This document shows positions 12,689 to 30,875 of a stretch of 64,000 bases of DNA, piece after piece. The position numbers were made by a program, and so were the translations under genes. Source of the stretch: Microbacterium lacticum (GTDB lineage: Bacteria; Actinomycetota; Actinomycetes; Actinomycetales; Microbacteriaceae); assembly GCF_006716815.1 (NCBI RefSeq), contig NZ_VFPS01000001.1, positions 930,001-994,000 on the forward strand. Reading direction: 5' to 3'. Numbering within the stretch: position 1 is the first letter of the stretch; every line of letters starts with the position of its first letter. Below the pieces are notes generated by a model. That model was not told the origin of the DNA. It saw nothing but the letters and a program-made list of their open reading frames with translations, and ran no database searches.

Positions 12689-13091
12689 GCCCGTCTCCGT
12701 CGACGCGCCGCCACGGATCGCCTCGCTCCTCGGCGTCCCAGTGCACGCGCGGCTCGTCGATCTCGCGCACCTTCCCGGTCAGCCAGTAGGTTTCATCGGG
12801 ACCCCACCCGCCGATGACGCTCGAGTACTCGGCATCCACCACGATCTCGCGCGTGGCGGCAGTGAGGTAGCCCCAGCCGCTGAGGTGCACGGCATCCCAG
12901 TCGTCGGCGACACGCGACCAATCCGGCAGTAGCCACCGGCCGCCCCGCCCCGTGACCCGGTACCAGTCGTGGCGGCGGCTGTTCGTCACGTCGAGCGGGT
13001 ACGTGCGGCACAGGTGCGCCCAGTCCGCCGCGCCGTGGATCTCGTACGTCCGACCCGCACCCCGCACCGGAATCGCCACGGCGCGGGTCCA
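12666..13091 (-). pseudogene. Interrupted backbone gene, C-terminal half (141 residues)
   Basis: Residues from WTRAVAIPVRG to the stop at 12666. The other half is 23.5 kb away at 36575-37257. Both halves are in the same codon phase at the shared 8 bp (TGGACCCG on the minus strand), so removing the island and one repeat gives an uninterrupted ~366-residue protein reading ...GFGWTRAVAIPV.... The product has Trp/Tyr-rich motifs (WYRVTG, DAVHLSGWGYL, EYSSVIGGW) but no family I recognise. As it stands, a short open frame with a TTG in the IS110 end could make a fusion, which is unlikely to be functional. Confidence 0.85.
13084..13091. repeat. 8-bp target-site duplication (left copy), CGGGTCCA
   Basis: Directly abuts the left end of the composite element. 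The identical copy is at 36575-36582, just outside the right end. An 8-bp duplication fits the 8-9 bp made by IS256-family transposases. Confidence 0.85.
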
Positions 13092-13126
13092 GGGTGAGTC
13101 CCATAGGGTGGATGCTCCTATTGCTG

Positions 13127-14398
13127 TCAAGCGGCCAGTGGCGGGCTGATCTGCTCCAGGGTGGCGGTCGCTCGGGCCTCGAGTTCAGGGTCGGCGCGAG
13201 TGCCGATCTCGAGTCGTCGGAGCCGCTGGTAGGGGACGCCGAGAGTGGCGGCGAGAACGCTGATCGGGATGCCTTTCGCTTGTCGGCGTGCTCGGAGTTC
13301 GCGCCCGACGGGATTGTCGGTGGCGGGATTGAGCAGAGCGGCATAGATCTCGTTCGCGACGTGTCGTTTGAGGCAGCGCATGATGTCACGGTCGGTGAGT
13401 TGCTCCGAACGACGCCTCTCGAAGTAGGCCATCGTCCGAGGCTCGCGATGCCGCATGCGCAACAGCACAATCCGGTGCAGCGCGGCGTTCGCGTGCCGGT
13501 TCCCGCCGCGAGAGAGTCGATGCCGTGTGCGTTGTCCGGAGGAGGCGGGGATCGGGGCGACACCGGCGAGAGCGGCGAAGCTGGCGCGGGTTCCGAGCCG
13601 CTCGGGGTTGTCGCCCGCGGCGACCAGGAGCGTCGCTGCGGTGACAGGACCGACTCCGCTCAGGGACAGCAGCGTGGGGTTGACCTGCCGGACGAGCATC
13701 TCCAACTGTTGTTCTATCAGGTCGATCTCGGCTTGCATCGTGAGGTGTCGGACCGCGAACCGTCGCAGTGTCTGCCGGGCGACGACCGCGGGATCGGGGG
13801 ACGTGATTGTTCCGGGCCGAGTCTTGGCGAGCGTGTTCACCAGACGCGGCCCGCTGAGAGCGCGGAACGCCTGTCGCACGAGCTCGGGTGCGGTGATCAG
13901 CAGCGCGTGGATCTGGTTCATCACTTGCGCTCTGGCCTTGGCCGTCGAGCGCCGCTCTGCGAGGAGGATCCGCATCGACTCGACCGCGCCATCACCAGAC
14001 TTTGGGATCGCGGTGTCCGTTCCTGAGAGGACAGCGGCCGCTGCCTGGTGGGCGTCGAGGGGGTCGGACTTGCCGCGACGACGGCGGGCTTGCCGGTCCT
14101 GTCGCGCGACTTCGATGACGGTCAGCCCCGCCGTGGTCAGCGCGCGTGCGAGGCCAGCCCCGTACGACCCCGTTCCCTCCACCCCGATACGGACGACATC
14201 ACCGTGCGCGTGGAGGAACGCGACGATCTGCGCGTAACCGCGACCGTCGGCACGGAACTCTCGGTCCGCGACAGGTCGGCCCACGAGATCGAGGATCGCG
14301 ACGTGATGCGTGTTCTTGTGCGTGTCGACCCCGGCGACCAACTCGGAGCCTGGTGGCAACGGGTTGGTCAGCGGCGGGTCGAGTGTCATGCTCGTCAT
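13127..14398 (-). CDS. IS110-family DEDD transposase, copy A
   Basis: 423 residues. The RuvC-like DEDD domain has VDTHKNTHH (Asp), VEGTGSYG (Glu) and KSDPLDAHQ (two Asp); the Transposase_20 domain has LLSLSGVGPVTAATLL and the IPASSGQ motif with the presumed catalytic Ser. The last ~55 residues (VGRELRARRQAKGIPISVLAATLG...) look like a Cro/C1-type helix-turn-helix, an uncommon addition. IS110 recombinases work with a structured RNA made from the element's noncoding end. This copy differs from B and D by Tyr for His in the MAxFERRR segment. Confidence 0.93.
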   Translation of the reverse strand: MTSMTLDPPLTNPLPPGSELVAGVDTHKNTHHVAILDLVGRPVADREFRADGRGYAQIVAFLHAHGDVVRIGVEGTGSYGAGLARALTTAGLTVIEVARQDRQARRRRGKSDPLDAHQAAAAVLSGTDTAIPKSGDGAVESMRILLAERRSTAKARAQVMNQIHALLITAPELVRQAFRALSGPRLVNTLAKTRPGTITSPDPAVVARQTLRRFAVRHLTMQAEIDLIEQQLEMLVRQVNPTLLSLSGVGPVTAATLLVAAGDNPERLGTRASFAALAGVAPIPASSGQRTRHRLSRGGNRHANAALHRIVLLRMRHREPRTMAYFERRRSEQLTDRDIMRCLKRHVANEIYAALLNPATDNPVGRELRARRQAKGIPISVLAATLGVPYQRLRRLEIGTRADPELEARATATLEQISPPLAA

Positions 14399-14622
14399 TG
14401 ACGGGATTCCCTTCCAATGGTGATGAACGTCACCGCGGGTCGGGTGAGTGCAGACAGCACAAAGGTGAGACGACTTTCCGGTCAGGCTCCTATCAAGTCA
14501 TGTGCCCGCCCGGCCCGCAGCGACCCCGGCGTCGACGGACAGATCCACAAAAAGACAGCCGCGAACGGCGTCCGTGTAATTTCGGGTCACGCCGGCGCCG
14601 GAGCCGAATCCATCATCTCTGT
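14399..14622 (-). ncRNA. Candidate bridge RNA region, copy A
   Basis: The ~224-nt noncoding leader between the element end and the transposase start. It appears identical to the other three leaders and can form the same stem-loops as described for copy B. Bridge RNA is inferred from the family; transcription is not shown. Confidence 0.45.
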
Positions 14623-14655
14623 GTCATTCCGTTGTTCCCTGTGGGTGGGTGGTGG

Positions 14656-15924
14656 TCAGGCGGTGAGGTAGAGCTCGGGGCGGGCGGGTTCGGTGTGTTC
14701 GTGGAGGGTGTGGACGAGTTTGCGCATGGAGATGTCGGAGAAGTAGCGACGTTCGCCGTATTGCCATTCCTCGTGCTGTTCTTGGAGGACGGCGCCGATG
14801 AGGCGGGTGACGCTGCCCTGGTCGGGGAAGATCTGGACGACGTCGGCGCGGCGTTTGATCTCCCGGTTCAGCCGCTCGATGGGATTGTTCGACCAGACTT
14901 TCTGCCAGTGCTCGCGGGGCAGCGCCGCGAACCCGGTCATGTCCGGTTCGGCGGCCTCGAGCATGGCGGCGATCTCGGGGAATGAGCCGCGGAGGCTGTC
15001 GGTGACGGCCTGGTATTGGGCGGTGACGGCTTCGGTGGTGGTCTGCGCGAAGATCGTGGAGATCAGTGCGTTGACCGGCTTGGAGCGGGCGGAGCCAATC
15101 TTCTGGGTGACGTTGCGAGCGAAATGGACCCGGCATCTCTGCCATCCCGTGCCAGGCAGGATCGCTTTGACCGCGGCTTTCAGGCCGGCGTGCGCGTCGG
15201 AGGTGACCAGGATTGCGCCGAGCGGGTCGGCATCGGTCGCGACCTTCAGTCCGCGCTCGCGCAGCGAGCGGAGGAACTCGGTCCAGAAGTCCGTCGTCTC
15301 CGCGTCGCCCAGCGCCATTCCGAGGATCTCCCGCCGGCCTTCGCCGCTGACACCGGTCGCGACGACGAGGGCCTGCGAGACGACCCGGCCGCGATGGCGG
15401 ACGTCGAGGTAGGTGGCGTCGAGGAACAGGTAAGGGAACCAGGTGTGATCGATCCGCCGGTGCAAGAACTCGTGGACCGCTTCGTCGATCTCGCCGCAGA
15501 TCCGCGATACCGTCGAGCGGGAGATGCCGGTGTCGTTGCCCAACGCGCGGACCAGATGCTCGACCTTGCGGGTGGACACCCCGTCGATCCAGGCCTGGCA
15601 GATCACCGCGTAGAGCGCCTTGTCGACCCGCCGCCGCGGGTGCAGCAGCGAGGGGAAGAACGACCCCTCCCGCAGCTTCGGGAGCTGAAGGTCCACCTCC
15701 CCGGCCGGGGTGGCGAGCGTCTTCGGGCGGGTGCCGTTGCGGCGGGTCGTCCGCTCCGGGGAACGCTCGTAACGGGCGGCGCCGATCTTCGCCGTTGCTT
15801 CCGCGTCGACGAGGTCTTGCAGCCCGGCCTGCAGCATCCGGCGGAACACGTCCTGATGCGCGAGCTCGGGATCGGCGAGGACTTCGCCGATCAGGGTCGA
15901 AAGGGCAGACTGGTACTGGGTCAT
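14656..15924 (-). CDS. IS256-family (Mutator-type) transposase, copy 1, intact
   Basis: 422 residues. The catalytic DDE residues are visible as FLDATYLDVR (first Asp), VTSDAHAGLK (second Asp) and the Glu in NNPIERLNREIK; the C-terminal domain includes YFSDISMRKL. The start ATG at 15924 gives MTQYQSALSTLIG. It is transcribed outwards towards the left end of the composite element. The protein matches both halves of copy 2, which is broken by IS3, so this copy is the likely source of transposase for the composite. Confidence 0.93.
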   Translation of the reverse strand: MTQYQSALSTLIGEVLADPELAHQDVFRRMLQAGLQDLVDAEATAKIGAARYERSPERTTRRNGTRPKTLATPAGEVDLQLPKLREGSFFPSLLHPRRRVDKALYAVICQAWIDGVSTRKVEHLVRALGNDTGISRSTVSRICGEIDEAVHEFLHRRIDHTWFPYLFLDATYLDVRHRGRVVSQALVVATGVSGEGRREILGMALGDAETTDFWTEFLRSLRERGLKVATDADPLGAILVTSDAHAGLKAAVKAILPGTGWQRCRVHFARNVTQKIGSARSKPVNALISTIFAQTTTEAVTAQYQAVTDSLRGSFPEIAAMLEAAEPDMTGFAALPREHWQKVWSNNPIERLNREIKRRADVVQIFPDQGSVTRLIGAVLQEQHEEWQYGERRYFSDISMRKLVHTLHEHTEPARPELYLTA

Positions 15925-16021
15925 CGTGGGATCTCTGCTTTGCTTCTTGCCGGAAACAACTGGTCATCCCACGGTGGCCCTTCAACGTCTACGACGACGA
16001 GAACCCCGCGGGAATTGACAC

Positions 16022-16243
16022 AGAGATGATGGATTCGGCTCCGGCGCCGGCGTGACCCGAAATTACACGGACGCCGTTCGCGGCTGTCTTTTTGTGGATC
16101 TGTCCGTCGACGCCGGGGTCGCTGCGGGCCGGGCGGGCACATGACTTGATAGGAGCCTGACCGGAAAGTCGTCTCACCTTTGTGCTGTCTGCACTCACCC
16201 GACCCGCGGTGACGTTCATCACCATTGGAAGGGAATCCCGTCA
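16022..16243 (+). ncRNA. Candidate bridge RNA region, copy B
   Basis: 222 nt upstream of the transposase. Visible stems: ACGGAC/GTCCGT (16067-16072 with 16102-16107) enclosing a T-rich loop, and GACTT/AAGTC (16143-16147 with 16166-16170). The second loop contains ATAGGAGC (16149-16156), identical to 8 nt at the element's own right end (17521-17528), and the stem strand carries GACTTGA, which also occurs in the IS256 terminal repeat used as target. These matches are what donor- and target-guide loops would need, but they are short. Confidence 0.5.
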
Positions 16244-17515
16244 ATGACGAGCATGACACTCGACCCGCCGCTGACCAACCCGTTGCCACCAGGCTCCGAG
16301 TTGGTCGCCGGGGTCGACACGCACAAGAACACGCATCACGTCGCGATCCTCGATCTCGTGGGCCGACCTGTCGCGGACCGAGAGTTCCGTGCCGACGGTC
16401 GCGGTTACGCGCAGATCGTCGCGTTCCTCCACGCGCACGGTGATGTCGTCCGTATCGGGGTGGAGGGAACGGGGTCGTACGGGGCTGGCCTCGCACGCGC
16501 GCTGACCACGGCGGGGCTGACCGTCATCGAAGTCGCGCGACAGGACCGGCAAGCCCGCCGTCGTCGCGGCAAGTCCGACCCCCTCGACGCCCACCAGGCA
16601 GCGGCCGCTGTCCTCTCAGGAACGGACACCGCGATCCCAAAGTCTGGTGATGGCGCGGTCGAGTCGATGCGGATCCTCCTCGCAGAGCGGCGCTCGACGG
16701 CCAAGGCCAGAGCGCAAGTGATGAACCAGATCCACGCGCTGCTGATCACCGCACCCGAGCTCGTGCGACAGGCGTTCCGCGCTCTCAGCGGGCCGCGTCT
16801 GGTGAACACGCTCGCCAAGACTCGGCCCGGAACAATCACGTCCCCCGATCCCGCGGTCGTCGCCCGGCAGACACTGCGACGGTTCGCGGTCCGACACCTC
16901 ACGATGCAAGCCGAGATCGACCTGATAGAACAACAGTTGGAGATGCTCGTCCGGCAGGTCAACCCCACGCTGCTGTCCCTGAGCGGAGTCGGTCCTGTCA
17001 CCGCAGCGACGCTCCTGGTCGCCGCGGGCGACAACCCCGAGCGGCTCGGAACCCGCGCCAGCTTCGCCGCTCTCGCCGGTGTCGCCCCGATCCCCGCCTC
17101 CTCCGGACAACGCACACGGCATCGACTCTCTCGCGGCGGGAACCGGCACGCGAACGCCGCGCTGCACCGGATTGTGCTGTTGCGCATGCGGCATCGCGAG
17201 CCTCGGACGATGGCCCACTTCGAGAGGCGTCGTTCGGAGCAACTCACCGACCGTGACATCATGCGCTGCCTCAAACGACACGTCGCGAACGAGATCTATG
17301 CCGCTCTGCTCAATCCCGCCACCGACAATCCCGTCGGGCGCGAACTCCGAGCACGCCGACAAGCGAAAGGCATCCCGATCAGCGTTCTCGCCGCCACTCT
17401 CGGCGTCCCCTACCAGCGGCTCCGACGACTCGAGATCGGCACTCGCGCCGACCCTGAACTCGAGGCCCGAGCGACCGCCACCCTGGAGCAGATCAGCCCG
17501 CCACTGGCCGCTTGA
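16244..17515 (+). CDS. IS110-family DEDD transposase, copy B
   Basis: 423 residues, same domain order as copy A (RuvC-like DEDD, Transposase_20 with Ser motif, C-terminal helix-turn-helix). The protein is identical to copy D as far as can be read. Its AAGGGAA ribosome site lies just upstream of ATGACG. The gene is intact and presumably active, acting on this element and, with its RNA, on the IS256 terminal repeat. Confidence 0.93.
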   Translation: MTSMTLDPPLTNPLPPGSELVAGVDTHKNTHHVAILDLVGRPVADREFRADGRGYAQIVAFLHAHGDVVRIGVEGTGSYGAGLARALTTAGLTVIEVARQDRQARRRRGKSDPLDAHQAAAAVLSGTDTAIPKSGDGAVESMRILLAERRSTAKARAQVMNQIHALLITAPELVRQAFRALSGPRLVNTLAKTRPGTITSPDPAVVARQTLRRFAVRHLTMQAEIDLIEQQLEMLVRQVNPTLLSLSGVGPVTAATLLVAAGDNPERLGTRASFAALAGVAPIPASSGQRTRHRLSRGGNRHANAALHRIVLLRMRHREPRTMAHFERRRSEQLTDRDIMRCLKRHVANEIYAALLNPATDNPVGRELRARRQAKGIPISVLAATLGVPYQRLRRLEIGTRADPELEARATATLEQISPPLAA

Positions 17516-17550
17516 CAGCAATAGGAGCATCCACCCTATGGGACTCACCC

Positions 17551-17924
17551 GCTGCTGGATGCGAAGGCGGCGCATCGGTCACGTCGCGCGTATGACCATC
17601 TCCGCTGGATTGCGGCAACGCATGGCATCTCGCGTTCGCGGATTGACGAGGTCATCGAGATCGCGGGTCTGACGTCGGTGGACCCCCGCCGGACAAGCTC
17701 GTCCTCGAACCGGCGGGCTATGTCTTCCAGTGGACCGGCGATGAGCACACCGCGTCCCTCGATCTCGATCCTGACCATGAACTGCTCTCCTGTCTCCTCA
17801 AGTTGAGAAGACCAGCCGATCAGGATCACACGATTATGCCGACAACCGCAGCCCGCCCACCGCCGCTGACCAGGACCGCCCGAGCATCATCGGCATAACC
17901 GCGCACACGGCATAACAGACCACG
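17551..17924. other. Cargo edge with gene remnants
   Basis: No complete gene is supported. On the plus strand, from 17552, a frame reads LLDAKAAHRSRRAYDHL followed by THGISRSRIDEVIEIAGL, which looks like a truncated protein with a helical DNA-binding-like end and no start. On the minus strand, 17545-17829 is open (94 residues) with a plausible internal start at MVRIEIEGRG. I recognise neither. The block ends where the IS256 remnant begins. Confidence 0.4.
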
Positions 17925-18654
17925 ATGCACACGTCCTCGACACCGCGGTTCTTGATCTCGGTGAGCACGCCCAGCCAGAACTTCGCGCCCTCGCCGCCAT
18001 CGCCGGCCCAGATCCCGAGGATGTCGCGCTCCCCGGCCGTGGTGACGCCGACGGCGACGTAGAACGGCTTGTTGCGCACCTGCCCGTCCCGGACCTTCAC
18101 CACGATCGCGTCGATGAACACCACCGGGTAGGCCCGGTCCAGTGGACGGTTCTGCCACTCGGTCATCTCCTCGATCACCTTGTCGGTGATCTTCGAGATC
18201 GTGTCCTTGCTGACACTCGCCCCGTAGACGTCGTCGAAGTGCGCCGCGACCTCACCAGTCGTCAGCCGGCGCGCGGTCAGCGACAGGACAATCTCGTCGA
18301 TCCCGTCCAACCGCCGCTGCCGCTTGCGCACGATCTTCGGCTGGAACGACCCGTCACGATCTCTCGGCACGTCGATCTCGACGGCACCGACCTCGGTGAG
18401 CACGGTCTTGGACCGGGTCCCGTTGCGCGCGTTCTCGCCGTTCGATGACGCGTGCTTCTCATAGCCGAGATGCTCGGTCATCTCCGCCTCGAGCGCGGTC
18501 TCGAGCACGGTCTTCGTCAGCCCGCCCAGCAGCCTCCCGGCCCCACGAGGCTGACGCCCTGCTCCTTCGCCTGCGCAAGCAGCTGCTCGGCGATCTGTTG
18601 CTGATCGATGATCTCTCCTGTCACAGGATCGATCATCTCGATGGTCTGGCTCAT
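17925..18654 (-). pseudogene. IS256-family transposase remnant (different subgroup), frameshifted and truncated
   Basis: The start at 18654 (MSQTIEMIDPVTGEII) reads into the first ~50 residues, then hits TGA (GGCWAG-stop); one base added in the GGGAGG tract near 18530 restores GGLLGGLTKTVLETALEAEM, which continues in the frame open to 17834. The catalytic segment VVFIDAIVVKVRDG is present, but homology stops after VEDVCIVVC at about 17925, so the second and third catalytic residues are lost. An inverted-repeat-like end may lie around 18690-18705. It lies just past the end of the broken large gene. Confidence 0.8.
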
Positions 18655-18720
18655 AGCCCTTCCTTTCGGTCAGGCCAGTCCCAGATCCACCGTTTTGCTG
18701 ACAGTCCCGCGCGCCTGCTG

Positions 18721-18947
18721 TTAGGGGCGCGGTTGCGCAGAGGACGCCTGCTGCAGGAGGTCTGCGAGCTGGATGAGGTCGGTGCGATCGGCGGCATGCC
18801 GGATACGTGCTCGGAACTGGTCCCAGTCGCTGGCTCCGATGCGCTGTTCGGCGAGGATCGGGTTCGCGGCGTCGAGGAGCCGGGTTGCCCAGGCCAGGAG
18901 CGGGTGGACGGCATCAGCGGGCGCGTTGAGCACCGGGGCTAGGTGTA
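18721..18947 (-). pseudogene. Large hypothetical gene, C-terminal fragment cut off by IS481
   Basis: About 75 residues (LAPVLNAPADAVHPLLAW ... LLQQASSAQPRP-stop). It joins in frame with 21285-22944 when the IS481 element and one CTAGG copy are removed, giving ...ITNGLAPVLNAPADAV.... The family is unknown. Confidence 0.75.
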
Positions 18948-19037
18948 CTGACCCAGATCGTTGTTGACGTAGGAGAGACCTCCGGGGTCGAGTTGGAGCT
19001 GTCTAAGTTCTTCAGCTCAAACGCACGGAGGTCTCTC

Positions 19038-19319
19038 TTGTCTCACGCTAATGCCCGGCTGACTCCGGCCGGCCGGTTGATCATGGTTCAGCGCATCCAG
19101 TCGGGGCGTGCGGTCGCGCATGTTGCCGCGGAAATGGGGATCTCCCGCACGACCGCGTGGCGGTGGTGGCGCAGGTTCCGGGAGTGCGGCCCGGCGGGCC
19201 TGATCGATCGTTCCAGCGTCGCCCGCTCCCACCCTCGCCAGACCAAAGCGTGCGTGGAGGCGAGGGTGCGGATCATGCGGCACCTCACTCGGCGTGGGCC
19301 GGTGTTCATCGCTGACAAG
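19038..19319 (+). pseudogene. IS481-family transposase, N-terminal part
   Basis: 94 residues from the TTG start (SHANARLTPAGRLIMV) through the helix-turn-helix (GISRTTAWRWWRRF) to GPVFIADK, where IS3 interrupts it. It continues at 20596. Confidence 0.85.
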
Positions 19320-19374
19320 TGGGGTGTGACACTTCTTGTAGACGGTCGTTACCAGGAAGGAACGACAGGCAGAG

Positions 19375-19665
19375 ATGTCTACGAATCGCAGGAAGTTCAC
19401 TGAGGAGTTCAAGGCCGACGCGGTCCAGCTCGTCGTGCAGGGCGGCCGCCCGATCGCGCAGGTCGCGCGGGAGTTGGAGATCAACGAGAGCTCGCTCGGG
19501 TACTGGGTGAAGGCGTATCGGGCCCAGCACCCCGACCCGGAGACGGCGCCGCCACCGGTGGAGGCCGCGCGGATCGCACGGTTGGAAGCGGAGAACCGGC
19601 GGCTCGCGGAGGAGAACGCGTTCTTGAAAAAAGCCGCGGCCTTCTTCGCGAAGGAGCAGCGGTGA
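19375..19665 (+). CDS. IS3-family OrfA
   Basis: 96 residues: an N-terminal helix-turn-helix (RRKFTEEFKADAVQLV, then GRPIAQVARELEINESSLGYW) and a C-terminal leucine-zipper-like coiled coil (ARLEAENRRLAEENAFLKKA). An A6G tract at 19627-19633, with the -1 frame open from there into OrfB, suggests programmed -1 frameshifting to an OrfAB fusion. Confidence 0.93.
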   Translation: MSTNRRKFTEEFKADAVQLVVQGGRPIAQVARELEINESSLGYWVKAYRAQHPDPETAPPPVEAARIARLEAENRRLAEENAFLKKAAAFFAKEQR

Positions 19666-20552
19666 GCGAGAAGTTCACGCTGATGCACGCGGAGAAGGCC
19701 ACCTTCACGATCGAGCTGATGGCGCGCCTGCTCAGCGTCTCACGCGCCGGCTACTACGCGTGGGCGAAGCGGCGGGACACGATCCCGCCGACCACGGCGC
19801 GGAGGGTGTGGCTGTCTGGTGTGATCACGCAGATCCACGACGACTCGCACGGGGTGAACGGGTTCCGGCGGGTGCTCGCCGAATTGTCTCGCCGCGGGAT
19901 CGCCGCGTCGGAGGGTCTGGTCCGCAAGATCATGCGGGAGGCGGGGATCTTCGGGATCCAGCCCCGCTCCAAGAAGCGCACCACGATCCCCGCCGACGAC
20001 GTGGTGACCCGCCCCGATCTGCTCAAGCGGGACTTCACCGCCGACCGGCCCGGGGTCCGCTTCGTCGGCGACATCACCTACCTGCGCACCGGGGAAGGGT
20101 GGCTGTATCTGGCGACGGTGATCGACCTGTTCAACCGTGAGGTCGTGGGCTGGTCGATGGCTGAGCACATGCGCACCGAGCTGATCGGCGACGCCCTCAC
20201 GATGGCCCATACCCACGGGCGCATCGAGTCGGGCGCTCTGTTCCACTCGGACCGCGGAAGCCAGTACACCTCTGACGAGTACGCCAAGCTCGCGGGCCGT
20301 TTCGGGGTGCGGTTGTCGGTGGGAAGGACCGGGGTGTGCTGGGACAACTCGGTCGCCGAATCGTGGTTCTCGATGCTCAAGAACGAGATGTACTACCGGC
20401 AGTCCTTCGCGACCCGGCGGCGAGCGAGATTCGCCGTGATGCAGTACATAGAGGTGTTCTACAACCGCCGCCGGCTGCACTCCACCCTCGGCTACCGCAC
20501 CCCCGCCGAGACCCGGGCCGCCTACTACGCCCAGACCGCAACCGCGGCCTGA
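19662..20552 (+). CDS. IS3-family OrfB transposase
   Basis: 296 residues; GTG start overlapping the OrfA stop. An HTH_21-type region (SHGVNGFRRVLAEL) precedes the rve integrase core with the DDE residues in VGDITYL, FHSDRGSQYTS and NSVAESWFSMLKNE. Intact; the same protein is encoded at 33301-34191. Confidence 0.94.
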   Translation: MSEKFTLMHAEKATFTIELMARLLSVSRAGYYAWAKRRDTIPPTTARRVWLSGVITQIHDDSHGVNGFRRVLAELSRRGIAASEGLVRKIMREAGIFGIQPRSKKRTTIPADDVVTRPDLLKRDFTADRPGVRFVGDITYLRTGEGWLYLATVIDLFNREVVGWSMAEHMRTELIGDALTMAHTHGRIESGALFHSDRGSQYTSDEYAKLAGRFGVRLSVGRTGVCWDNSVAESWFSMLKNEMYYRQSFATRRRARFAVMQYIEVFYNRRRLHSTLGYRTPAETRAAYYAQTATAA

Positions 20553-20595
20553 AATCCACAAAGAGATCGTCTACGAAGCTTGACACAGCCCAAAG

Positions 20596-21288
20596 CTCGG
20601 CTTGCAGGCCTCAACGGTCGGTAGGGTGTTGCGCCGCCACCACGTGCCGTTGCTGCGGGAGCTGGACCCGGTCACGGGGTCCGTGATCCGCGCGACCCGC
20701 CGATCCGCGCAGCGTTACGAGCATGATCATCCCGGGTCCCTGATCCACGTTGATGTGAAGAAACTCGGCCGTATCCCCGACGGCGGCGGATGGCGTCTGC
20801 ATGGCCGCGGGCAACGTCCTGCGCGCAAGCGGGGCCTGGGTTACGACTACGTGCACACCGTCATCGACGACCATTCCCGAGTTGCTTACGCGGAGATCCA
20901 CGACGACGAGAAAGGCACCACCGCGGCGGGCGTCCTCGACCGCGCGATCGCGTTCTACGCGCGCCTCGGCGTCACAGTCGAACGCGTCATCAGCGACAAC
21001 GCGTTCGCTTACCGCCACTCGGCCGCGTTCAAGGCAGTGGTCGACGCGCACGGCATCCGACAGCGGTTCATCAAACCGCACTGCCCCTGGACCAACGGGA
21101 AAGTCGAACGCCTCAACCGCACCCTCGCCACCGAGTGGGCCTACGCCCGCCCCTGGAGCTCGAACGACGACCGAAAAGCAGGGTTGACGACCTGGCTCGA
21201 CCACTACAACCTAGACAGGCACCACCTCGGCATCGGAGGCAAAACCCCCATCGACCGAATCAACAACGGTCGAGGTCAGTACATCTAG
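20596..21288 (+). pseudogene. IS481-family transposase, C-terminal part
   Basis: Continues from the N-terminal part: IADK joins LGLQASTVGRVLRRHHVPLL after removing IS3 and one AAG. It contains the integrase core (HVDVKKLGRIPDG, VISDNAFAYRHS, WTNGKVERLNRTLATEW). The TAG stop lies inside the right CTAGG duplication. The reconstructed protein is about 324 residues. Confidence 0.85.
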
Positions 21289-22944
21289 GCCGTTGGTGAT
21301 GCGCTCGGCTCCGGGCAGGTCGCCTGCGCGCAGCGCCTCGAACAGGGCGGCTCGCTTGGGTTCGTCGGCGCTGGTGAGGGTGCCTTCGTAGTGGAGACGG
21401 TCGAGTCGGGCGAGCAAACGTGCGGCACGCCCGGCTGGACTATCCGCGGCTTCGTCGCGGATGGCGAGGATGCGGTGGATGTTGTCAGGCAGGAATGGGC
21501 CGTGGTTGCCGGTGCGCTTGTCCATGAAGCGGAGGATCTGCGCGCCGCCGATGCCGATTCCGTCGACGGCGGTCACGACCGCGTCGGGGATGTTGTCGAA
21601 TCGGAACCCGGCTGAGAAGTAGGTCAGCAGTCCCTTCTCATGTGCACGGTGGACGAGCGTGAGTGCGAGGGGGCCGCCGAGCTGGTCGGTGATACACCGG
21701 CTCGGGTAGGTGTCGGCGGTCCCGTCCCAGGTGACTTTGTCGAGTCCGGCCTGCGCGGCGATCTCGATGCCGAGCAGCCCGATCTCCTCCGCTGTGGTGG
21801 CACGGATCACTTCCCGGCGGGCGCGGATGGTCTCTTCGCGGTCGTCGAGGATGGGGGTGTTGATGTTGAACGCCGCGGAGAGTACTTGGGCGTGTCGGTC
21901 GCGGCGCACTTCGCGGGCGAGGGCGGACAGGAGCCGGATCGCTTCGGTCGCGGTGAGCCGCTCGACGGAGAATTTGACTTCCGCGAGTCCGTCGGACAGC
22001 AGTGAGGATGCTGCGGCGGCGAATGTGCGGCTGGTCTTGATGAGCGAGTCTTCGACGGTTCCGTCCAGCAGCGGCCGGCCGATGTAGCTGGAGGTCGGTG
22101 CGGCCTCGGCGGTGTGCAGGCGGACGCGGGCGACGGTGCGCGGGGAGGGAATCCGGTAGGGCTCGAGTTCTTCCCGGCTGCGGCTGACGCCGCGTTCGAG
22201 GTGCTCGACGTGCACGATGACGCCGTGGAGGTAGCCGGGATACCGGGTGGTGCCGGCGAGGTGCCCTTCGCCGGGGTCGGTGATCGAGGCGTAGGTTTGC
22301 ACGTCGCGGAACCCCGAGGTGCCCCAGATCGGGTATGGCCCGGGGATGTGCACGCCCTGGTCGAGCAGCCAGTAAGCGGCTCGTACCGCGATGCGCTCGT
22401 CGATGGTGAGGTTGTCCTCGCCGTCACGGCGGTACGCGATCAACGCGGAAGCGGCGGCGAGGAAGTCCTGCTCTGGGCGGGCGTAGCGCTCGTGATCGAT
22501 GCGGATGGAGACGTCCAGGCCGTCATCGGTGAAGATCGCGTGCGCCCGGGCTGCCGAGCTGGTGGGCTCGAAGCCGTCGCGGAACGCGGCCAGCGCCGTC
22601 CGGTAGGCGGTACCGAGGGCTTCGAGGCCGTGGTCCGGCGCCTGCGTCAGCTCGATCGTTTCGGTGAACCTGTTGATCAGGTCCGTCTGATCGGAGAATC
22701 GGTCCGCGAACCGTGCGAGGTCGGCCCGGACGCGATTCTCGGTGTCTCGCAGGGTCTCCTGGGTGGGGAGCCGGTAGGAGTCGGTCTTGGTGAAGGTGTC
22801 GTCGGTGAACCGTTCCCGGGTGAGGACGGCATCGGCGCGGACGAGGAGGTCGCCGAGGTGCTCGACGATCAGGTGGGTGGCGGCGCCGGCGGGTATCTGC
22901 GCGGTGGTGGGCTGGAGACCAGCCCGGGGAACGAGGGTGACCAT
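21285..22944 (-). pseudogene. Large hypothetical gene, N-terminal part (about 550 residues), cut off by IS481
   Basis: Starts MVTLVPRAGLQPTTAQIP with only a weak GGGAC site upstream; an A8 tract lies just before it. The N-terminal third is helical and acidic. The middle and later part has alternating hydrophobic strand and helix segments (IGLLGIEIAAQAGLDKVTWDG, GLLTYFSAGFRFD, DAVVTAVDGIGIGGAQILRF) that look TIM-barrel-like. As sequenced the frame runs into IS481 and stops at 21211. I do not recognise the family. Together with 18721-18947 it would encode about 630 residues. It is the largest cargo gene and is inactivated. Confidence 0.75.
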
Positions 22945-23050
22945 GTCAAGGCAGTCCCTTTTTTTTGCGTGATGAAGCTGGGGTGTCGGGGCGGTGACGC
23001 GTGTGCCCCGGACTCGGCCGCCCGAGGCACACGCCGTACGTCGCCGCGGA

Positions 23051-23476
23051 TCAAGCGATTGCGGCGAGGGCGGCTGCGGCGACTTCGTGGTCCTGCTCCG
23101 GGGAGCCGCCGCCGGCGCCGATGGCGCCGATCACGGTGCCTGCCGCGTCGGTGATCGGGATGCCGCCGGCGACGAACGCGTAGGCGGCGTCGCGGGTGCC
23201 GAGGCCGAACAAGGCCTGGCCGGGGTTGACGGCGCCCTGGAGGTCCTGGGTGGGCTGGGCGAAGTGCACCGCGGTGAGCGCCTTGGCGACGCTGGTGCCG
23301 ATCGAGGCGAGGGCTGCCCCGTCGCCGCGGACCTGGGCGACGAGGTTGCCGCCGCCGTCGAGGATCGCGATGGTGAACGGGACGCCGAGCTCGTCGGCCT
23401 TCGCGAAGCCCGCGTCGAGGGCGGCATGGGCGCTCGCCCGGGCCAGGACGACCGGGGAGATGGTGGGAGTGGGCAT
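23051..23476 (-). CDS. GlcG/HbpS-family small protein (1)
   Basis: 141 residues; start chosen at MPTPTISPVVLA (23476) because AGAAGGAG lies 8 nt upstream; the longer frame to 23569 has no such support. The family pattern is clear: an N-terminal helix, FTIAILDGGGNLVAQVRGDGA, DAAYAFVAGGIPITDAAGTVIGAIGAGGGSPEQDHEVAAAAL. Members bind haem or flavin-like ligands or occur in glycolate/diol operons; the ligand here is unknown. It is divergent from the HxlR gene, with the candidate HxlR site between them. Confidence 0.85.
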   Translation of the reverse strand: MPTPTISPVVLARASAHAALDAGFAKADELGVPFTIAILDGGGNLVAQVRGDGAALASIGTSVAKALTAVHFAQPTQDLQGAVNPGQALFGLGTRDAAYAFVAGGIPITDAAGTVIGAIGAGGGSPEQDHEVAAAALAAIA

Positions 23477-23578
23477 CGGTGTGCTCCTTCTGATCCAGAT
23501 GCATGGTTCGTCCCGCACGAGATGTGACGGGTGCTGCGAAGGTAAACAACGAGCCGTAGTTACCGGCAAGGCCTGCTA

Positions 23579-23593
23579 CTATCCGATGGGTAT
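23579..23593. promoter_or_regulatory. Candidate HxlR-family operator upstream of the regulator
   Basis: CTATCCGATGGGTAT matches the palindrome upstream of the oxidoreductase (24052-24066) at 11 of 15 positions, mostly in the CTA-CC and TGGGTA half-sites. It lies 36 bp before the regulator start and within the intergenic region shared with the divergent GlcG gene. A second inverted repeat, GGTAA-N14-TTACC, is at 23541-23564. Confidence 0.5.
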
Positions 23594-23628
23594 TGCTGTG
23601 GTGAAATCAGGCCTGGAGGGCGGGAATC

Positions 23629-24027
23629 ATGACGTTGAGTGACAGCCGGGTACCGATCCGTGAGCGGGTCAAGACGCGCGGGGACGTGTACTCAGCCGAC
23701 TGTCCCTGCCGGGACCTGCTGGATGTGGTGGCGACCAAGTGGGCCGCCTTGGCGATCGGCGCCCTCGCGGACGGCACTCTTCGCTTCGGGGAGTTGCAGC
23801 GGCGGTTGCAGGGGGTGTCCCCGAAGGTGCTGACTGCGACGCTGCGGCGGCTGGAGGATTTCGGGCTCGTGCACCGGGAAGTGATCCCGGCCGTGCCCCT
23901 GCATGTCGAGTACTCCCTGACCGACGTCGGGCGCAGCGCCGTCGAACCGGTCTTCGCGCTGCGCGAGTGGGCTGAGTCCCGTTATGCCTTCGCTCTGGCG
24001 CACGCGGAACGCGCCGGAGACGCCTGA
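23629..24027 (+). CDS. HxlR/DUF24-family winged-helix regulator, QorR-like
   Basis: 132 residues. The winged helix is evident (DLLDVVATKWAALAIGAL, FGELQRRLQGVSPKVLTATLRRLEDFGLVHRE, VEYSLTDVGRSAVEPV). Cysteines in DCPCRDLLD near residue 25-27 sit where redox-sensing DUF24 regulators such as YodB, HypR and corynebacterial QorR carry their sensor Cys. The gene is followed by a quinone-reductase-type oxidoreductase, as in the qorR-qor2 pair. Likely role: repressor released by thiol oxidation or quinones, autoregulated through the two similar palindromes. This is inference from family and context. Confidence 0.88.
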   Translation: MTLSDSRVPIRERVKTRGDVYSADCPCRDLLDVVATKWAALAIGALADGTLRFGELQRRLQGVSPKVLTATLRRLEDFGLVHREVIPAVPLHVEYSLTDVGRSAVEPVFALREWAESRYAFALAHAERAGDA

Positions 24028-24051
24028 ACGAACGCGGATCGGATGAGAACG

Positions 24052-24104
24052 CTACCCATTGGGTAGTAGTAGCTCTTGCGGGTAACCACTGGTCACGCGG
24101 TTAC
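24052..24104. promoter_or_regulatory. Candidate HxlR operator and promoter region of the oxidoreductase
   Basis: A perfect 15-bp palindrome CTACCCATTGGGTAG (24052-24066, odd centre) lies in the gap between the regulator and the oxidoreductase. A second inverted repeat, GTAACC-N11-GGTTAC, is at 24082-24104. Sites of this kind are typical binding sites of dimeric winged-helix repressors. Confidence 0.6.
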
Positions 24105-24164
24105 GGTGAAGGCGTCGGCGTTGTTCCGTGCGCCGCGCCACACCCGTGAGAAGGAGCTTCCGCG

Positions 24165-25196
24165 ATGACGACCATCGAACAGACCATGACGATCCCCGCC
24201 GTCGTGTCCCGCGCCGGCGGGTCCGTCGACGGACCCGACAGCCTCATCGACGCCACGATCCCGACCCCGCCCACGCCGACCGGGCACGACCTGCTCGTCG
24301 AGGTCAAGGCCGTCTCCGTCAACCCGGTCGACGTGAAGGTGCGCGCCTCCGGGAACCGGGGCGGCACGGACCGTGTGCTCGGCTGGGATGCCGCCGGCAC
24401 CGTGATCGCCGTCGGTGAGGAGGTCACTCTCTTCCGGCCAGGTGACGACGTGTACTACGCGGGAGCGATCGAACGCCCGGGCTCCTACGCGAGCCGGCAG
24501 CTCGTGGATGAGCGCATCGTCGGTCCCAAGCCCACGAGCTTGAGCTACGCCGAGGCTGCGGCGCTGCCGCTGACCGGGATCACGGCGTGGGAGGCGCTGT
24601 TCGACAAGCTCGGCCTCACCGAGGACTCCACCGGGACGCTGCTTGTGCTCGGCGCCGCGGGCGGGGTGGGCTCGATCCTGATCCAGCTCGCGAAGGCGCT
24701 CACCGGGGTTCGGGTGATCGCCACCGCCTCCCGGCCCGAGTCCCGCGAGTGGGTGCGCTCCCTCGGCGCGGACGTGATCGTCGATCACAGTGCGGATGAT
24801 CTGGACCGGCAGATTCTCGCCGCCGCCCCCGGCGGGGTGGATTACGTGTTCACATCGCAGAGTAAGGGCCGCATCCCGCTGTTCACGAAGGTCGTGCGCC
24901 CGTTCGGGGAGATCGTCGCGATCGACGACGAACGGGACCTCGACTACTTCGCGCTCAAGTCCAAGGCCATCTCGTGGCACTGGGAGTTCATGTTCACCCG
25001 TCCCCGCTACGGCTACGACCTCGAAGCCCAGCATCGCGCCCTCACCCGGATCGCCGAGCTCGTCGACGTCGGCCGCATCCGCACCACCCGCACCCGCACC
25101 CTCACGCCGATCGATGCGAGCACGCTCCGCGAAGCCCACAGGATCGTGGAGACCGGCCACGCCGTCGGCAAGATCGTGGTCGCGGACCGCGAGTGA
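24165..25196 (+). CDS. Zinc-type alcohol dehydrogenase-like/NADPH:quinone reductase (MDR family)
   Basis: 343 residues; ATG after AGAAGGAG. MDR layout: GroES-like N-terminal half (LLVEVKAVSVNPVDVKVRASG, VLGWDAAGTVIAVGEEVTLF), NAD(P)-binding Rossmann motif VLGAAGGVGSILIQLAKAL and the late GHAVGKIVVAD. The structural and catalytic zinc ligands are absent, as in the quinone-oxidoreductase (ZADH-like) branch. It probably reduces quinones or reactive carbonyls with NADPH. Control by the upstream HxlR regulator is likely. Confidence 0.9.
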   Translation: MTTIEQTMTIPAVVSRAGGSVDGPDSLIDATIPTPPTPTGHDLLVEVKAVSVNPVDVKVRASGNRGGTDRVLGWDAAGTVIAVGEEVTLFRPGDDVYYAGAIERPGSYASRQLVDERIVGPKPTSLSYAEAAALPLTGITAWEALFDKLGLTEDSTGTLLVLGAAGGVGSILIQLAKALTGVRVIATASRPESREWVRSLGADVIVDHSADDLDRQILAAAPGGVDYVFTSQSKGRIPLFTKVVRPFGEIVAIDDERDLDYFALKSKAISWHWEFMFTRPRYGYDLEAQHRALTRIAELVDVGRIRTTRTRTLTPIDASTLREAHRIVETGHAVGKIVVADRE

Positions 25197-25228
25197 AGCC
25201 GCGGCGCCGGATGCTCTTGGCCGGGCGG

Positions 25229-25945
25229 TCAGGTGATGCTCTGGCTCTGGGCGATCATCTGGCGGGCGATGTCGGCCAGCCGGGGGCGGGGCAGGCGGCT
25301 GGCTGGGCCGGCGACTCCGATCGCCGCGCCCGGGCCGATGGCGATGGCGATGCAGGAGACCCCGGGGTGGAAGCTGTTCTCGTCGAGCGCGTATCCGCGA
25401 ACCGCAGCATCGGACACAGCCGCCGCATGCGCCGCCCACGCGGCGGGATCGGTGTCGGCGATCCGTTCGGCGAGCGCGGGGTCGGCGGCAAGCAGGGCGT
25501 GTCCGATCGCGGTGCCCAGGAGTGGCTCGCGTTCCCCGGTCGTGACGGTCAGGCGGAGCGGTTCGCTGGATTGCACCGCATCGGCGCACAGATACTCGCT
25601 GCCCGCGGCGAAGGCGAGGTAGGCGGTCTCGCCCGTCTGCGTCGACAGCGCCTCCAGCAACGGCCGGACTCGGGTGCGCAGCATCTGCTCCGCCTCGACC
25701 CGGGGACGCAGCAGCGCTTCCAGCTTGCCGGTCAGCCGATACGGGCCGCCCCGGTTCGGCTGTTCCACGTAGCCCAGCGTCTCCAGGGAGGCCAGCAGGT
25801 TGTGGGCGGTGCTCCGGTTCAGCCCGACGCCGTCCGCCAGGTCGCTCAACCGCAGCCCTTCCGGCGCCGCGGCCAGGTGCTCCACGAGTGCGAACGCGCG
25901 CTGGACCGACTGGATGACCCGGCCCGACTCCGACCTTGATTCCAT
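25229..25945 (-). CDS. IclR-family transcriptional regulator
   Basis: 238 residues. N-terminal winged helix (SVQRAFALVEHLAAAPEGLRLSDLA, GLNRSTAHNLLASLETLGYVEQ) and C-terminal IclR effector domain (ETAYLAFAAGSEYLCAD, LLGTAIGHALLAADP, CIAIAIGPG). IclR regulators usually control a neighbouring catabolic or efflux operon and respond to a small aromatic or acidic ligand. It is divergent from the second GlcG gene across about 125 bp and so probably controls it and the MFS exporter behind it. Confidence 0.92.
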   Translation of the reverse strand: MESRSESGRVIQSVQRAFALVEHLAAAPEGLRLSDLADGVGLNRSTAHNLLASLETLGYVEQPNRGGPYRLTGKLEALLRPRVEAEQMLRTRVRPLLEALSTQTGETAYLAFAAGSEYLCADAVQSSEPLRLTVTTGEREPLLGTAIGHALLAADPALAERIADTDPAAWAAHAAAVSDAAVRGYALDENSFHPGVSCIAIAIGPGAAIGVAGPASRLPRPRLADIARQMIAQSQSIT

Positions 25946-26070
25946 GATGCTGAACTATACCGGACACGAGTGGCATCTGGTTTGACAATCGGGCGAAACC
26001 AAAGATAGTTTGTTCATCAAGACGGAATCCATGTAGCCGTCGTCTCACATTCATTCAGCAAGGAGGAATC

Positions 26071-26463
26071 ATGGTTCAGCGTGTGCGTGCGCAGGCGGTG
26101 ATCGACGCGGTCGTCGCGAAGGCCGACGAGGACGGGCACGGGGTGGCCGTCGCAGTGGTGGATGCCGCCGGGACGCTGGTGGCCTTCGCCCGCACGGACG
26201 CGGCCCTGATCGGCCCGGTCGAGGTGGCGCAGAAGAAGGCCCGCACCGCGGCCCTGTTCGGCACCGACAGCATCGACCTCGGCCGGGACGCGCAGCCCGG
26301 GGGCGCGATCTACTCGATCGAGCACACCAACGGCGGGCTCATCTCCTTCGGAGGCGGCATCGTCCTCCGCGACGGCGACACGGTTATCGGAGCGGTCGGC
26401 GTCGCCGGCGCCACCCTCGACGCCGACGAGGACCTCGCCCGGCTGGGAGCGGCGACCTTCTGA
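26071..26463 (+). CDS. GlcG/HbpS-family small protein (2)
   Basis: 130 residues; ATG after AAGGAGG. Motifs: VAVAVVDAAGTLVAFARTDAA, IEHTNGGLISFGGGIVLRDGDTVIGAVGVAGATLDADEDLARLGAATF. A paralogue or distant relative of the product of 23051-23476. Sitting opposite the IclR gene and before the MFS gene, it may be part of a ligand-handling unit, but no substrate can be named. Confidence 0.87.
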   Translation: MVQRVRAQAVIDAVVAKADEDGHGVAVAVVDAAGTLVAFARTDAALIGPVEVAQKKARTAALFGTDSIDLGRDAQPGGAIYSIEHTNGGLISFGGGIVLRDGDTVIGAVGVAGATLDADEDLARLGAATF

Positions 26464-26481
26464 CCGCGGAACCCGAATCGC

Positions 26482-26513
26482 GGAGGCGGGTCGCACCCGA
26501 GCGACCCGCCTCC
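26482..26513. terminator. Strong hairpin between glcG-like gene 2 and the MFS gene
   Basis: A perfect 13-bp stem (26482-26494 with 26501-26513) with a 6-nt loop, followed by GTTGTCC. It could attenuate or end transcription before the MFS gene, which has its own ribosome site. Confidence 0.6.
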
Positions 26514-26572
26514 GTTGTCCGCCCGAGTGGCATCGCCCCTCACTTCCTCCGCAGAAAGCGAGACAGACACCC

Positions 26573-27748
26573 ATGATCCGGCTTCTCTCCTTGACCGTCG
26601 CCGCGTTCGCGATCGGCATCAGCGAGTTCGTCCTCGTCGGGCTGCTGCCCACCATCGCCGCAGAGACCGGCGTGAACGTCGGCACCGCAGGCCTGCTGGT
26701 CACGTTCTACGCCCTGGCGATCACCGTGCTCTCACCCGTGCTGACGAGCTGGCTCAGCCGCTACGACTCCCGCTGGGCGCTCGTCGCCCTCATGATCGCC
26801 TTCGCCGCCGGGAACGTCCTCGTCGCCACCGCTGGAGGCTTCACCGGGCTGCTGCTCGGCCGCATCCTCGCCGGAGCCGCCCACGGCACCGTGTTCGCCC
26901 TGGGAGCCCCGGCCGCCGCCGCGCTCGTCCCGAAGGACAAGGCCGCCCACGCCATCTCCCTGATGTTCCTCGGCCTCACCGGCGCGATGGTCATCGGCGT
27001 CCCCCTGGGCACCATCATCGGCACCGCCGTCGGCTGGCGCACCACGTTCCTCATCGTCGCCGCGTTGGGCGCGATCGCAGCATTCGCCATCGCGGCGCTC
27101 ATCCCCTCCACCCGCACCGGCGAGTCGGTGAGCCTGCGCGAACAGCTCTCCCTGCTGCGAGACCGGCCGATCGCGATGACCTACCTCGTCACCGGCCTTG
27201 GGTTCGGCGCGACTTTCGCCGTGTTCACTTACCTCGAACCCCTTCTCACCGGCGACGCCGGCTACACCGCCACCGGGGTGACCCTCGCGCTGTTCCTGTT
27301 CGGCGGCGCGACCGTGATCGGCAACCTCGCCGGCGGAGCCCTGGCCGACCGCCTGGGCACCACACGGGTCATACGCATCGCCCTCATAGGGCTCATCGTC
27401 AGCTTCATCGGCGTGCTGGCCACCTCGTCCAGCACAGTAGGGATCGCCATCGTGATCGCCGTATGGGGCGTGTTCGCGTTCCTCATCTCACCCCCCGTGC
27501 AGACCCACGCCGTCGCCCTCGCCAGCGGCCGCGGCCCCGGCGCCGAGAAGGCAGCCAGCGGGCTGAACATCGCCGCCTTCAACGCCGGAATCGCCCTCGC
27601 CTCCTGGGCCGGCGGCGTGATCGTGGAATCCGCGGGCGTCACACGCACCCCATGGGCCGCCCTCGCCCTGTCGATCCTCGCTCTCGTCGCCAGCTTCGGC
27701 ATCAACCGCGCCTTCGCGGCCGCCCGGTCCGCCCGCGTCGAGGCGTGA
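26573..27748 (+). CDS. MFS transporter, DHA1 (drug:H+ antiporter-1) type
   Basis: 391 residues with 12 hydrophobic segments. The N-terminus (LTVAAFAIGISEFVLVGLLPTIA) and the GRILAGAAHGTVFALGAPAAAALV motif are typical of the AraJ/YdhP/PbuE branch of DHA1, 12-TM proton antiporters that export drugs, sugars or purines. It lies after the IclR-controlled GlcG gene. The substrate cannot be predicted. Confidence 0.92.
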   Translation: MIRLLSLTVAAFAIGISEFVLVGLLPTIAAETGVNVGTAGLLVTFYALAITVLSPVLTSWLSRYDSRWALVALMIAFAAGNVLVATAGGFTGLLLGRILAGAAHGTVFALGAPAAAALVPKDKAAHAISLMFLGLTGAMVIGVPLGTIIGTAVGWRTTFLIVAALGAIAAFAIAALIPSTRTGESVSLREQLSLLRDRPIAMTYLVTGLGFGATFAVFTYLEPLLTGDAGYTATGVTLALFLFGGATVIGNLAGGALADRLGTTRVIRIALIGLIVSFIGVLATSSSTVGIAIVIAVWGVFAFLISPPVQTHAVALASGRGPGAEKAASGLNIAAFNAGIALASWAGGVIVESAGVTRTPWAALALSILALVASFGINRAFAAARSARVEA

Positions 27749-27827
27749 ACAGCGTGACGCGGCCGATCAGCGGCGGCGGGAACCCTTCCAGCAAGGGCAC
27801 AGCGGCACCGCCGTCAGAGGGGGGTGG

Positions 27828-28769
27828 ATGCATGTGCCGGAGCCTCACGGCCTGCACCGTGTGCGTCCACCGTTCACGGCGCACTGCCACGCTCTCACGC
27901 AGACGATCGAGTCCGCCGGCGACTGCGTGACGATCGTCGTCGTGCGGCGGGGCGGTGCGACCATCGCCGGAGACGCCGGCGGAAGGTTCGTGCGGACAGG
28001 GGACGTCATCGTGATGACGGCGTCGGACGCCTCCCTGCGTGCGGAGCCTGAGCCTTGTTCGACAGCGACAACCCTGCGTGTCGATTGCGCCTATCTGAGT
28101 GATCAGGCGTTCTGGCAACACGCTGGCATCTTCTCCGACCGCCTCGACGCCAAGCGCATGCTAGAAGCCCGCCCGGGCAGTTCCATCCAGATCGTGCGGG
28201 TCAGCGAGAGCCGCAATGAGCGGATCGGATCGTGGCTGGACGAGCTTGTCTTCCTCAGCGCGGAGGGGTTGCCCTCCGCCCGGTTCTATCGGGCGCAGTC
28301 GATCTTGTTCTCTGTGCTGCACGCGGTCGTTCCCGATCTGACGCTGATCCAGCACGGTGAGCGCGTCGCGCAGCGGGGCGGTGCGCATTCGGGGAACGCA
28401 GGGGTGCGCATGCACCTCCCTTACAGAACAGAGGCGCGTCTCGTCGCGGAGCTGTTGCGAGACGATCTGCGGCGTCGACGGACGCTGGACGAGCTGGCGC
28501 GCACCGTCCATCTCTCACCATCACAGCTCAACCGCGTCTTCGTGCAAGCGTTCGGTCGACCACCGATCGCCTACCTGACGATGCTTCGGGTGGAGCGGAT
28601 GGCGCTTCTGCTTCGCACGACCGACCTGACCGTTTCCGCGATCGCCGCGGAGGTCGGATGGGGCAGCGCCGACTTCGCCGCGCGGCAGTTCCGCCGCAGC
28701 CAAGGCGTCAGTCCGACGCGCTACCGAGCCGGACTCGATCTGCCTGCTCTCGGGGATACGCCCGACTGA
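27828..28769 (+). CDS. AraC-family transcriptional regulator
   Basis: 313 residues. The C-terminal ~100 residues form the double helix-turn-helix (LDELARTVHLSPSQLNRVF and LTVSAIAAEVGWGSADFAARQF, ending GVSPTRYR). The N-terminal ~170 residues look like the AraC-binding-like cupin domain (RFVRTGDVIVMTASDASL). The N-terminus begins MHVPEPHGLH; the start is not strongly supported by a ribosome site. The neighbour suggests control of the MFS gene, without proof. Confidence 0.88.
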   Translation: MHVPEPHGLHRVRPPFTAHCHALTQTIESAGDCVTIVVVRRGGATIAGDAGGRFVRTGDVIVMTASDASLRAEPEPCSTATTLRVDCAYLSDQAFWQHAGIFSDRLDAKRMLEARPGSSIQIVRVSESRNERIGSWLDELVFLSAEGLPSARFYRAQSILFSVLHAVVPDLTLIQHGERVAQRGGAHSGNAGVRMHLPYRTEARLVAELLRDDLRRRRTLDELARTVHLSPSQLNRVFVQAFGRPPIAYLTMLRVERMALLLRTTDLTVSAIAAEVGWGSADFAARQFRRSQGVSPTRYRAGLDLPALGDTPD

Positions 28770-30840: not shown

Positions 30841-30875
30841 GGTCAAGTCCCGTGGTGTGGATGCTCCTATTGCTG

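Follow-up and report, generated by a model that had tools for sequence, protein, structure and literature searches.

The window (the whole 64-kb stretch of DNA that was analysed) contains four near-identical copies of an IS110 element, designated A, B, C and D, and two copies of an IS256-family element (PF00872), each of which is flanked by two oppositely oriented IS110 copies, one per end. Searching the whole assembly (3,086,904 bases, 9 contigs) returned the four copies and one 41-base match. Within the element (to 17531 in copy B), copies A, C and D differed from copy B at 1, 2 and 0 bases, respectively. The 222-nt leader between the left end and the open reading frame (ORF) of a 423-aa recombinase was identical in all four copies, as the earlier note had observed; it was judged non-coding from its position and conservation, and mechanical ORFs overlap it on the other strand. 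The features, with predicted roles for the parts of the putative RNA, were as follows:

13092-14626, minus strand: IS110 copy A with short repeat remnants; leader the same as in B
14621-16021, minus strand: IS256-family element with an IS110 copy in each terminal repeat; transposase at 14656-15924 (PF00872)
16016-17550, plus strand: IS110 copy B with repeat remnants
16022-17531, plus strand: IS110 copy B proper, running from the first base past the shared C (left junction) through the shared C (right junction), placed by junction comparison with homologues and with the uninterrupted IS256 ends of genomes G179 and G029
16022-16243, plus strand: non-coding left end, predicted to encode a bridge RNA (comparative, covariance-model match)
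16025-16030, plus strand: -10-like GATGAT (motif only), 17 nt from TTGACA once the ends join in a circle
16039-16116, plus strand: predicted target-binding loop; closing stem 16039-16052 with 16105-16116, inner hairpin 16070-16088
16060-16068, plus strand: left target guide AAATTACAC; 7/9 letters agree with the left flank at each copy; covariation
16094-16097, plus strand: right target guide GTGG, complementary to CCAC of the right junction
16098-16099, plus strand: handshake guide AT, complementary to AT at the element's right end; covariation position 6
16130 to about 16202, plus strand: predicted donor-binding loop (3' border approximate) with helices 3 and 4; closing stem partly supported
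16149-16156, plus strand: left donor guide ATAGGAGC, identical to 17521-17528
16168-16175, plus strand: right donor guide GTCGTCTC, pairing with GAGATGAT (16023-16030) if two G-U pairs are allowed
16244-17515, plus strand: IS110 recombinase, 423 aa; D25, E74, D112, D115 and S287 align with D11, E60, D102, D105 and S241 of IS621
17512-17517, plus strand: -35-like TTGACA at the right end (motif only)
17521-17531, plus strand: right end, comprising left donor ATAGGAGC, handshake AT and shared C
17532-17550, plus strand: remainder of the outer IS256 repeat, comprising right target CAC, CCTAT and tip GGGACTCACCC
30841-32375, minus strand: IS110 copy C with short repeat remnants; leader the same as in B
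35040-36574, plus strand: IS110 copy D with short repeat remnants; leader the same as in B

The 423-aa proteins of all four copies matched both IS110-family domains, PF01548 and PF02371 (copy B: 4e-23 and 9.8e-20). The alignment to IS621 also placed the catalytic DEDD and serine residues of the family; this assignment is our own reading of the alignment, with a +2 offset of chain numbering, and the IS621 numbers were taken from PMC11208158. A single-sequence phmmer search of solved structures returned no relative of the recombinase, whereas a profile built from the window's sequence and those of 12 relatives (13 in all) matched IS621 (E 3.2e-14) and ISCro4 (E 4.4e-13), followed by a third, weaker match to chain 7on8_A (0.00045). 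A scan of viral contigs found no relative.

The window's leader can be aligned with those of relatives in Microbacteriaceae, Rhodococcus, Arthrobacter and elsewhere. Because single-sequence fold energy did not reach significance (z +1.43 over 16050-16190 and z -1.41 over 16022-16243), covariation was used instead, and the structural support is that of covariation and not of energy. Among 13 homologues, two-sided changes were found at 20 of 32 pairs compared with 11.0 (sd 2.1) in shuffled data, and paired cells reached 83.9% compared with 73.8%. Slid versions of the structure gave 4-7 two-sided pairs, although the structure was drawn with the 13 sequences in view and was thereby favoured over them. 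The results revealed two stem-loops with internal guide loops. The target loop is closed by a 13-pair stem with the inner hairpin inside it, and its helices 1 and 2 showed two-sided changes at 14/20 pairs; the stem of the donor loop was weaker, with one two-sided change among the 6 pairs of helix 4. The earlier note had proposed loop-bearing stems at 16067-16107 and 16143-16170. The two-loop structure held, and the borders shifted to 16039-16116 and 16130 to about 16202: of the note's intervals, the first takes in the inner hairpin plus a portion of the target loop, and the second just a portion of the donor loop.

At E 0.001, a covariance model of the leader (172 positions) had matches in 72 of the 394 class genomes sampled and in 29 of 299 from the family. 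Applied to 92 sources, the model gave 97 matches; extra same-genome copies, weak or partial hits (e.g. L130, L160, L162, L163, L167-L172, L174), L108 and L109 were not given to it. Three matches were dropped, namely second hits in used loci (L126:1274 and L090:886) and an alignment without the hairpin (L197), leaving 94 elements. The left-guide tests used the 91/97 matches with enough left flank, the right-guide test used 55/94 elements with one exact donor 8-mer downstream (38 distinct right guides), and the left-donor-guide count used 89/97 with 1400 nt downstream. Two Rhodococcus plasmid relatives (L109, L111) kept a donor-loop-like stretch upstream, and by eye a target loop of the window's type was absent from both; a covariance-model search of L111 gave no match, and inspection of L108 and L109 by eye revealed no leader motif of the window's type.

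We then compared the target guides with the insertion flanks. As the left target guide we took 11 letters, the last of them separated from the hairpin by one base. For 69 distinct guides and flanks of 90 nt, the summed score was 505, against a maximum of 362 in 5000 permutations (mean 4.74 per guide), a permutation that leaves in the kinship by which guides and flanks are partly co-inherited. A score of at least 7 was reached by 42/69 guides compared with 5.3% of mismatched pairs. The 90-nt comparison was a rerun, because the 45-nt flank of the first run had missed longer left ends (e.g. G581, G550, G361); that run gave 464 against a maximum of 327 in 10000, and in 32/69 cases no other guide scored higher on a flank than that flank's own. 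The letters to the right of the donor-guide copy served as the comparison for the right target guide, with the register held fixed. Over 38 distinct guides, positions 8-13 scored 192 against a maximum of 118 in 10000, and positions 9-13 agreed at 0.89, 0.95, 0.68, 0.79 and 0.79, compared with 0.28-0.32 after permutation. Handshake position 6 agreed at 0.89 with its own partner and at 0.53 when permuted, and positions 14-16 were at background; position 8 was uninformative because it is nearly always C (0.95 own and permuted). These results indicate that the target loop matches its target and covaries with it, so the comparison of loops with insertion flanks across homologues that the earlier note had asked for proved positive on both sides.

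Individual elements illustrated this covariation. L116 has TCGTACAC both as its left guide and in its flank, with right guide CGATGG at junction CCATCG; L112 has left guide CAGCAAAAAAC, the same 11 letters in its flank, and right guide CGACG at junction CGTCG. In the window, the right guide agrees with 4 letters of the site at copies A and B and with 5 at copies C and D. A counter-example was L106, which carries the window's guide and yet has the flank AAACTCCAC, a better fit to the guide of G064; G064 itself sits at AACCCCAC.

The donor loop also followed the element's ends, and less strongly than the target loop followed its target. The identity of ATAGGAGC in the second loop with the right end of the element, pointed out in the earlier note, stands; an 8-mer of the leader recurred in the last 19 nt up to 17534 for 2.0% of shuffled leaders. 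The left donor guide had an exact copy of its own downstream in 36/71 representatives, compared with a permuted mean of 17.3 and a maximum of 26 in 5000. Among non-consensus left donor guides, 11/35 had an exact own copy downstream and 24/35 failed, 7 of the latter having the consensus ATAGGAGC downstream instead. The right donor guide was positive and weaker (72 representatives: 513 against a maximum of 439 in 5000). Joining of the ends gives TTGACA-17-GATGAT, equalled by 3/5000 shuffles, and TTGAC with a pair spanning the joint was present in 37/38 rows, which include the 4 window copies and close relatives; in L093, L110, L114 and L115 the joint was placed one or more bases off. The joined ends thus rebuild a promoter as a motif. 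In three Arthrobacter/Paenarthrobacter plasmid relatives, the right end lies about 280-760 bases past the recombinase ORF (L110 at 4172, L112 at 4003 and L114 at 4513), and in L110 and L114 a hypothetical protein is annotated between the two.

The junctions placed the element within the terminal inverted repeats of IS256. All 26 right junctions of the element and its relatives, 6 of them from one Leifsonia genome, read AATAGGAGCATCCAC followed by variable letters. The empty site was read from uninterrupted IS256 ends in two other genomes, namely CGCGGGAAGTGACACCAC-GCTACGAGACGCACCC in G179 (whose IS256 element has GTAACACCAC at its other end) and GTGACACCAC-GCCACGGGACTTGACC in G029. The guide-matched bases fall in the inner motif GT(G/A)ACACCAC of these repeats. 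Since the left junction keeps target letters through ...ACAC and target letters begin with CCAC at the right junction, the crossover lies at one C, the 20th base from the IS256 tip. Because the motif is present in both terminal repeats, IS110 occurs at both ends of each IS256 copy, in opposite orientation. An IS256-type transposase frame or fragment adjoins the left junction in 9/35 other loci examined (L070, L071, L073, L080, L086, L087, L106, L107 and L116), a count in which L103 is the same contig as L073 and many other loci have little or no left flank. The transposase is further away in L090 and L092, and is present in L108, where the leader was unrecognised. A second genome (L070, 463-4865) shows the same arrangement of two inverted IS110 copies at both IS256 ends; its IS110 copies are 83% identical to those of the window and its IS256 transposase 42% identical. 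Among the open-licence papers matched by our searches, no title or abstract opening reports IS110 in IS256 terminal repeats.

The structure, the guide covariation, the junctions, the promoter motif at the joint and the catalytic residues, all observed in the sequences compared, provide strong comparative evidence that the leader at 16022-16243 is an IS110-group bridge RNA. We put at roughly 92% the probability that it is the bridge RNA gene of an IS110-group element, with a first loop that reads the IS256-repeat motif and a second loop that reads the element's own joined ends. Transcription, binding, pairing and catalysis would then proceed as follows. After excision, the ends would join and create the TTGACA-17-GATGAT promoter, which would transcribe the leader, and the RNA would bind the 423-aa DEDD/serine recombinase. 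The first loop would read the target, AAATTACAC with the left half and GTGG with the right half, roughly NNTTACACCAC, an inner motif of the IS256 terminal inverted repeats. The second loop would read the joined ends via ATAGGAGC and GTCGTCTC, and the two handshake bases AT would pair with the donor after strand exchange. The split terminal repeats would presumably stop IS256 from moving.

The bridge-RNA reading of the earlier note is therefore borne out by the architecture, the guide covariation, the promoter motif, the match to the IS256 repeat and the donor guide; its choice of GACTTGA as the target guide is not. The heptamer occurs where that note placed it, at 16143-16149 and, within GGGACTTGACC, in the outer halves of copies C and D, and GGAC stands at the tip position in 20/26 right junctions, as recognition of the repeat through the donor loop would have it. 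We nevertheless consider such recognition very improbable. Copies A and B have GGGACTCACCC in place of the GACTTGA-bearing tip, and among homologues GACTTGA stands beside the donor guide in the RNA of 29/94 elements and in 5/21 of their right junctions, so it follows the flank neither between copies nor between homologues. Its partner would be the repeat tip, at junction positions 17-27, whereas the right flank ceases to covary after position 13. Some 7-mer of GGGACTTGACC turned up in 4.6% of shuffled leaders, a figure that rose to 19.6% when both tips and both strands were counted, and the real leader also has two 7-mers of the A/B tip at other places. GACTTGA, which lies in the donor loop, was rejected as the target guide, and the better-supported target guides are AAATTACAC and GTGG in the first loop.

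It is less improbable, though still unlikely, that the first loop provides only part of the specificity and that the protein, or some other contact, recognises the IS256 tip GGGACNNNACC, restricting insertion mostly to terminal repeats. GGAC lies 10-13 bases right of the shared C and is kept in those 20 junctions (counted by eye) though the guide covariation stops before it; the six without it are G137a, L090, L093, L098, L099 and L101, of which L098 is clearly different. Copies of the unrelated relatives G208 and G581 share right-side letters past the guide, while by eye those of G651, G673 and G411 have no evident shared sequence past the guide region, and the tip may be common just because these targets are IS256 ends. 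The genome has 15 unoccupied TKACACCAC sites, yet all 4 copies lie in terminal repeats. With two more guide positions, however, the longer ANTKACACCAC leaves 3 unoccupied sites (two AGTGACACCAC and one AATGACACCAC), whose fit to the guide is about that of the used sites; because only these 3 remain free, the eleven-letter guide alone nearly explains the location of all 4 copies. A regulatory 5' untranslated region (riboswitch or attenuator) with incidental guide matches would equally lie just upstream of an ORF and have a conserved structure. A search of 12900-36800 in the window against Rfam at E up to 1 found nothing in the element and one weak match elsewhere, and regulation does not predict two guide segments that change with the flanks at unrelated insertion sites; we regard this explanation as scarcely probable.

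We further compared the two junctions in 25 elements with distinct guides and both junctions. Positions are numbered presumptively as in IS621, with the right guide and the handshake bases as reference points. The junctions agreed at position 8 in 22/25 elements, at position 7 in 3/25 and at position 9 in 6/25. The left match had to reach the 3' end of the guide, which favours target letters to position 8 on the left; this selection does not force agreement between the two junctions. At the left junction, target letters run to position 8 and element letters start at 9; at the right junction, element letters run to 8 and the letters that follow the right guide start at 9. With only position 8 common to both, the pattern fits strand exchange between positions 8 and 9 and a core of one base. 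The window's target guides read TTACAC/GTGG, compared with CTCCAC/GTGG in G064 and TCGTACAC/CGATGG in L116. We tentatively suggest, at somewhat less than even odds, that this actinobacterial clade exchanges strands at a single C (position 8), one base before the IS621 top-strand cut, and that its target guides changed along with the IS256 repeats used, so that the element would track another transposon and cap both its ends.

IS4321 and IS5075, of the IS1111 group, reportedly insert in the terminal repeats of Tn21, and the present element is likewise a DEDD element that targets the terminal repeats of a different mobile element. The IS1111 group has subterminal inverted repeats (7-17 bp) and its RNA on the right; in the present case the RNA lies on the left and IS256 is the target. 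A long non-coding left end, 222 nt left of the ORF, is matched by model R1, and 16 nt separate the stop codon from the junction on the right, which leaves the element in the IS110 group. According to PMC11187229, the two target matches of the IS110 type are in the order opposite to IS1111, and the seekRNA of ISEc21 and other IS110/IS1111 elements likewise comes from a non-coding region and selects the target; the present case differs from the ISEc21 seekRNA in its clade and target, and is known from sequence alone.

The likeness to IS621 (PMC11208160, PMC11208158) includes an RNA in the left end with two internal loops, a DEDD and serine recombinase, a 4-nt right target guide followed by handshake bases (AU in IS621) that pair with donor AT, and a promoter across the joined ends. 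Unlike IS621, the element has a 423-aa recombinase that is reached among solved structures by profile only. The IS621 target is a REP element, compared with the IS256 terminal repeat here, and the left donor guide lies three bases further left in the carried-over numbering. IS621 has a CT core at positions 8-9 with a top-strand cut between 9 and 10 (PMC11208158); an IS621-like CT core was not found at both junctions here, which share one base, C at position 8, and the element remains in the IS110 group. On these comparisons, the element is a further case of the already-known bridge-RNA kind; its guide map has been corrected, and it may differ from IS621 in one mechanistic point. What began as a claim of base matches is thereby a guide map open to testing, for an IS110 clade whose recombinase is long and which falls outside the solved IS621 type. 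The element would also provide an example of an insertion sequence that lands, under RNA guidance, in the ends of another. The one-base core, a concrete prediction at odds with IS621, could be relevant to recombinase engineering.

Several further observations concern the region around the copies. IS256-type elements make target repeats of 8-9 bp. The 8 bases outside copy A (13084-13091, TGGACCCG outward) are the reverse complement of those outside copy D (36575-36582, CGGGTCCA), that is, an 8-bp direct repeat brackets the whole 13092-36574 region; the bases outside copies B and C gave no such match. The outer repeat tips are CCTATGGGACTCACCC at A and B and ACCACGGGACTTGACC at C and D, whereas the IS256 bodies would instead pair A with D and B with C. 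The IS256 bodies may have been flipped or exchanged via recombination between IS110 copies, with 17551-30840 brought in between. Two inverted copies of a further IS with an rve integrase core and HTH_21 (19319-20592 and 33261-34534) are 100% complementary, and one of them sits within the second IS256. The bracketed segment also carries an MFS transporter and an AraC-type regulator at 26573-28769.
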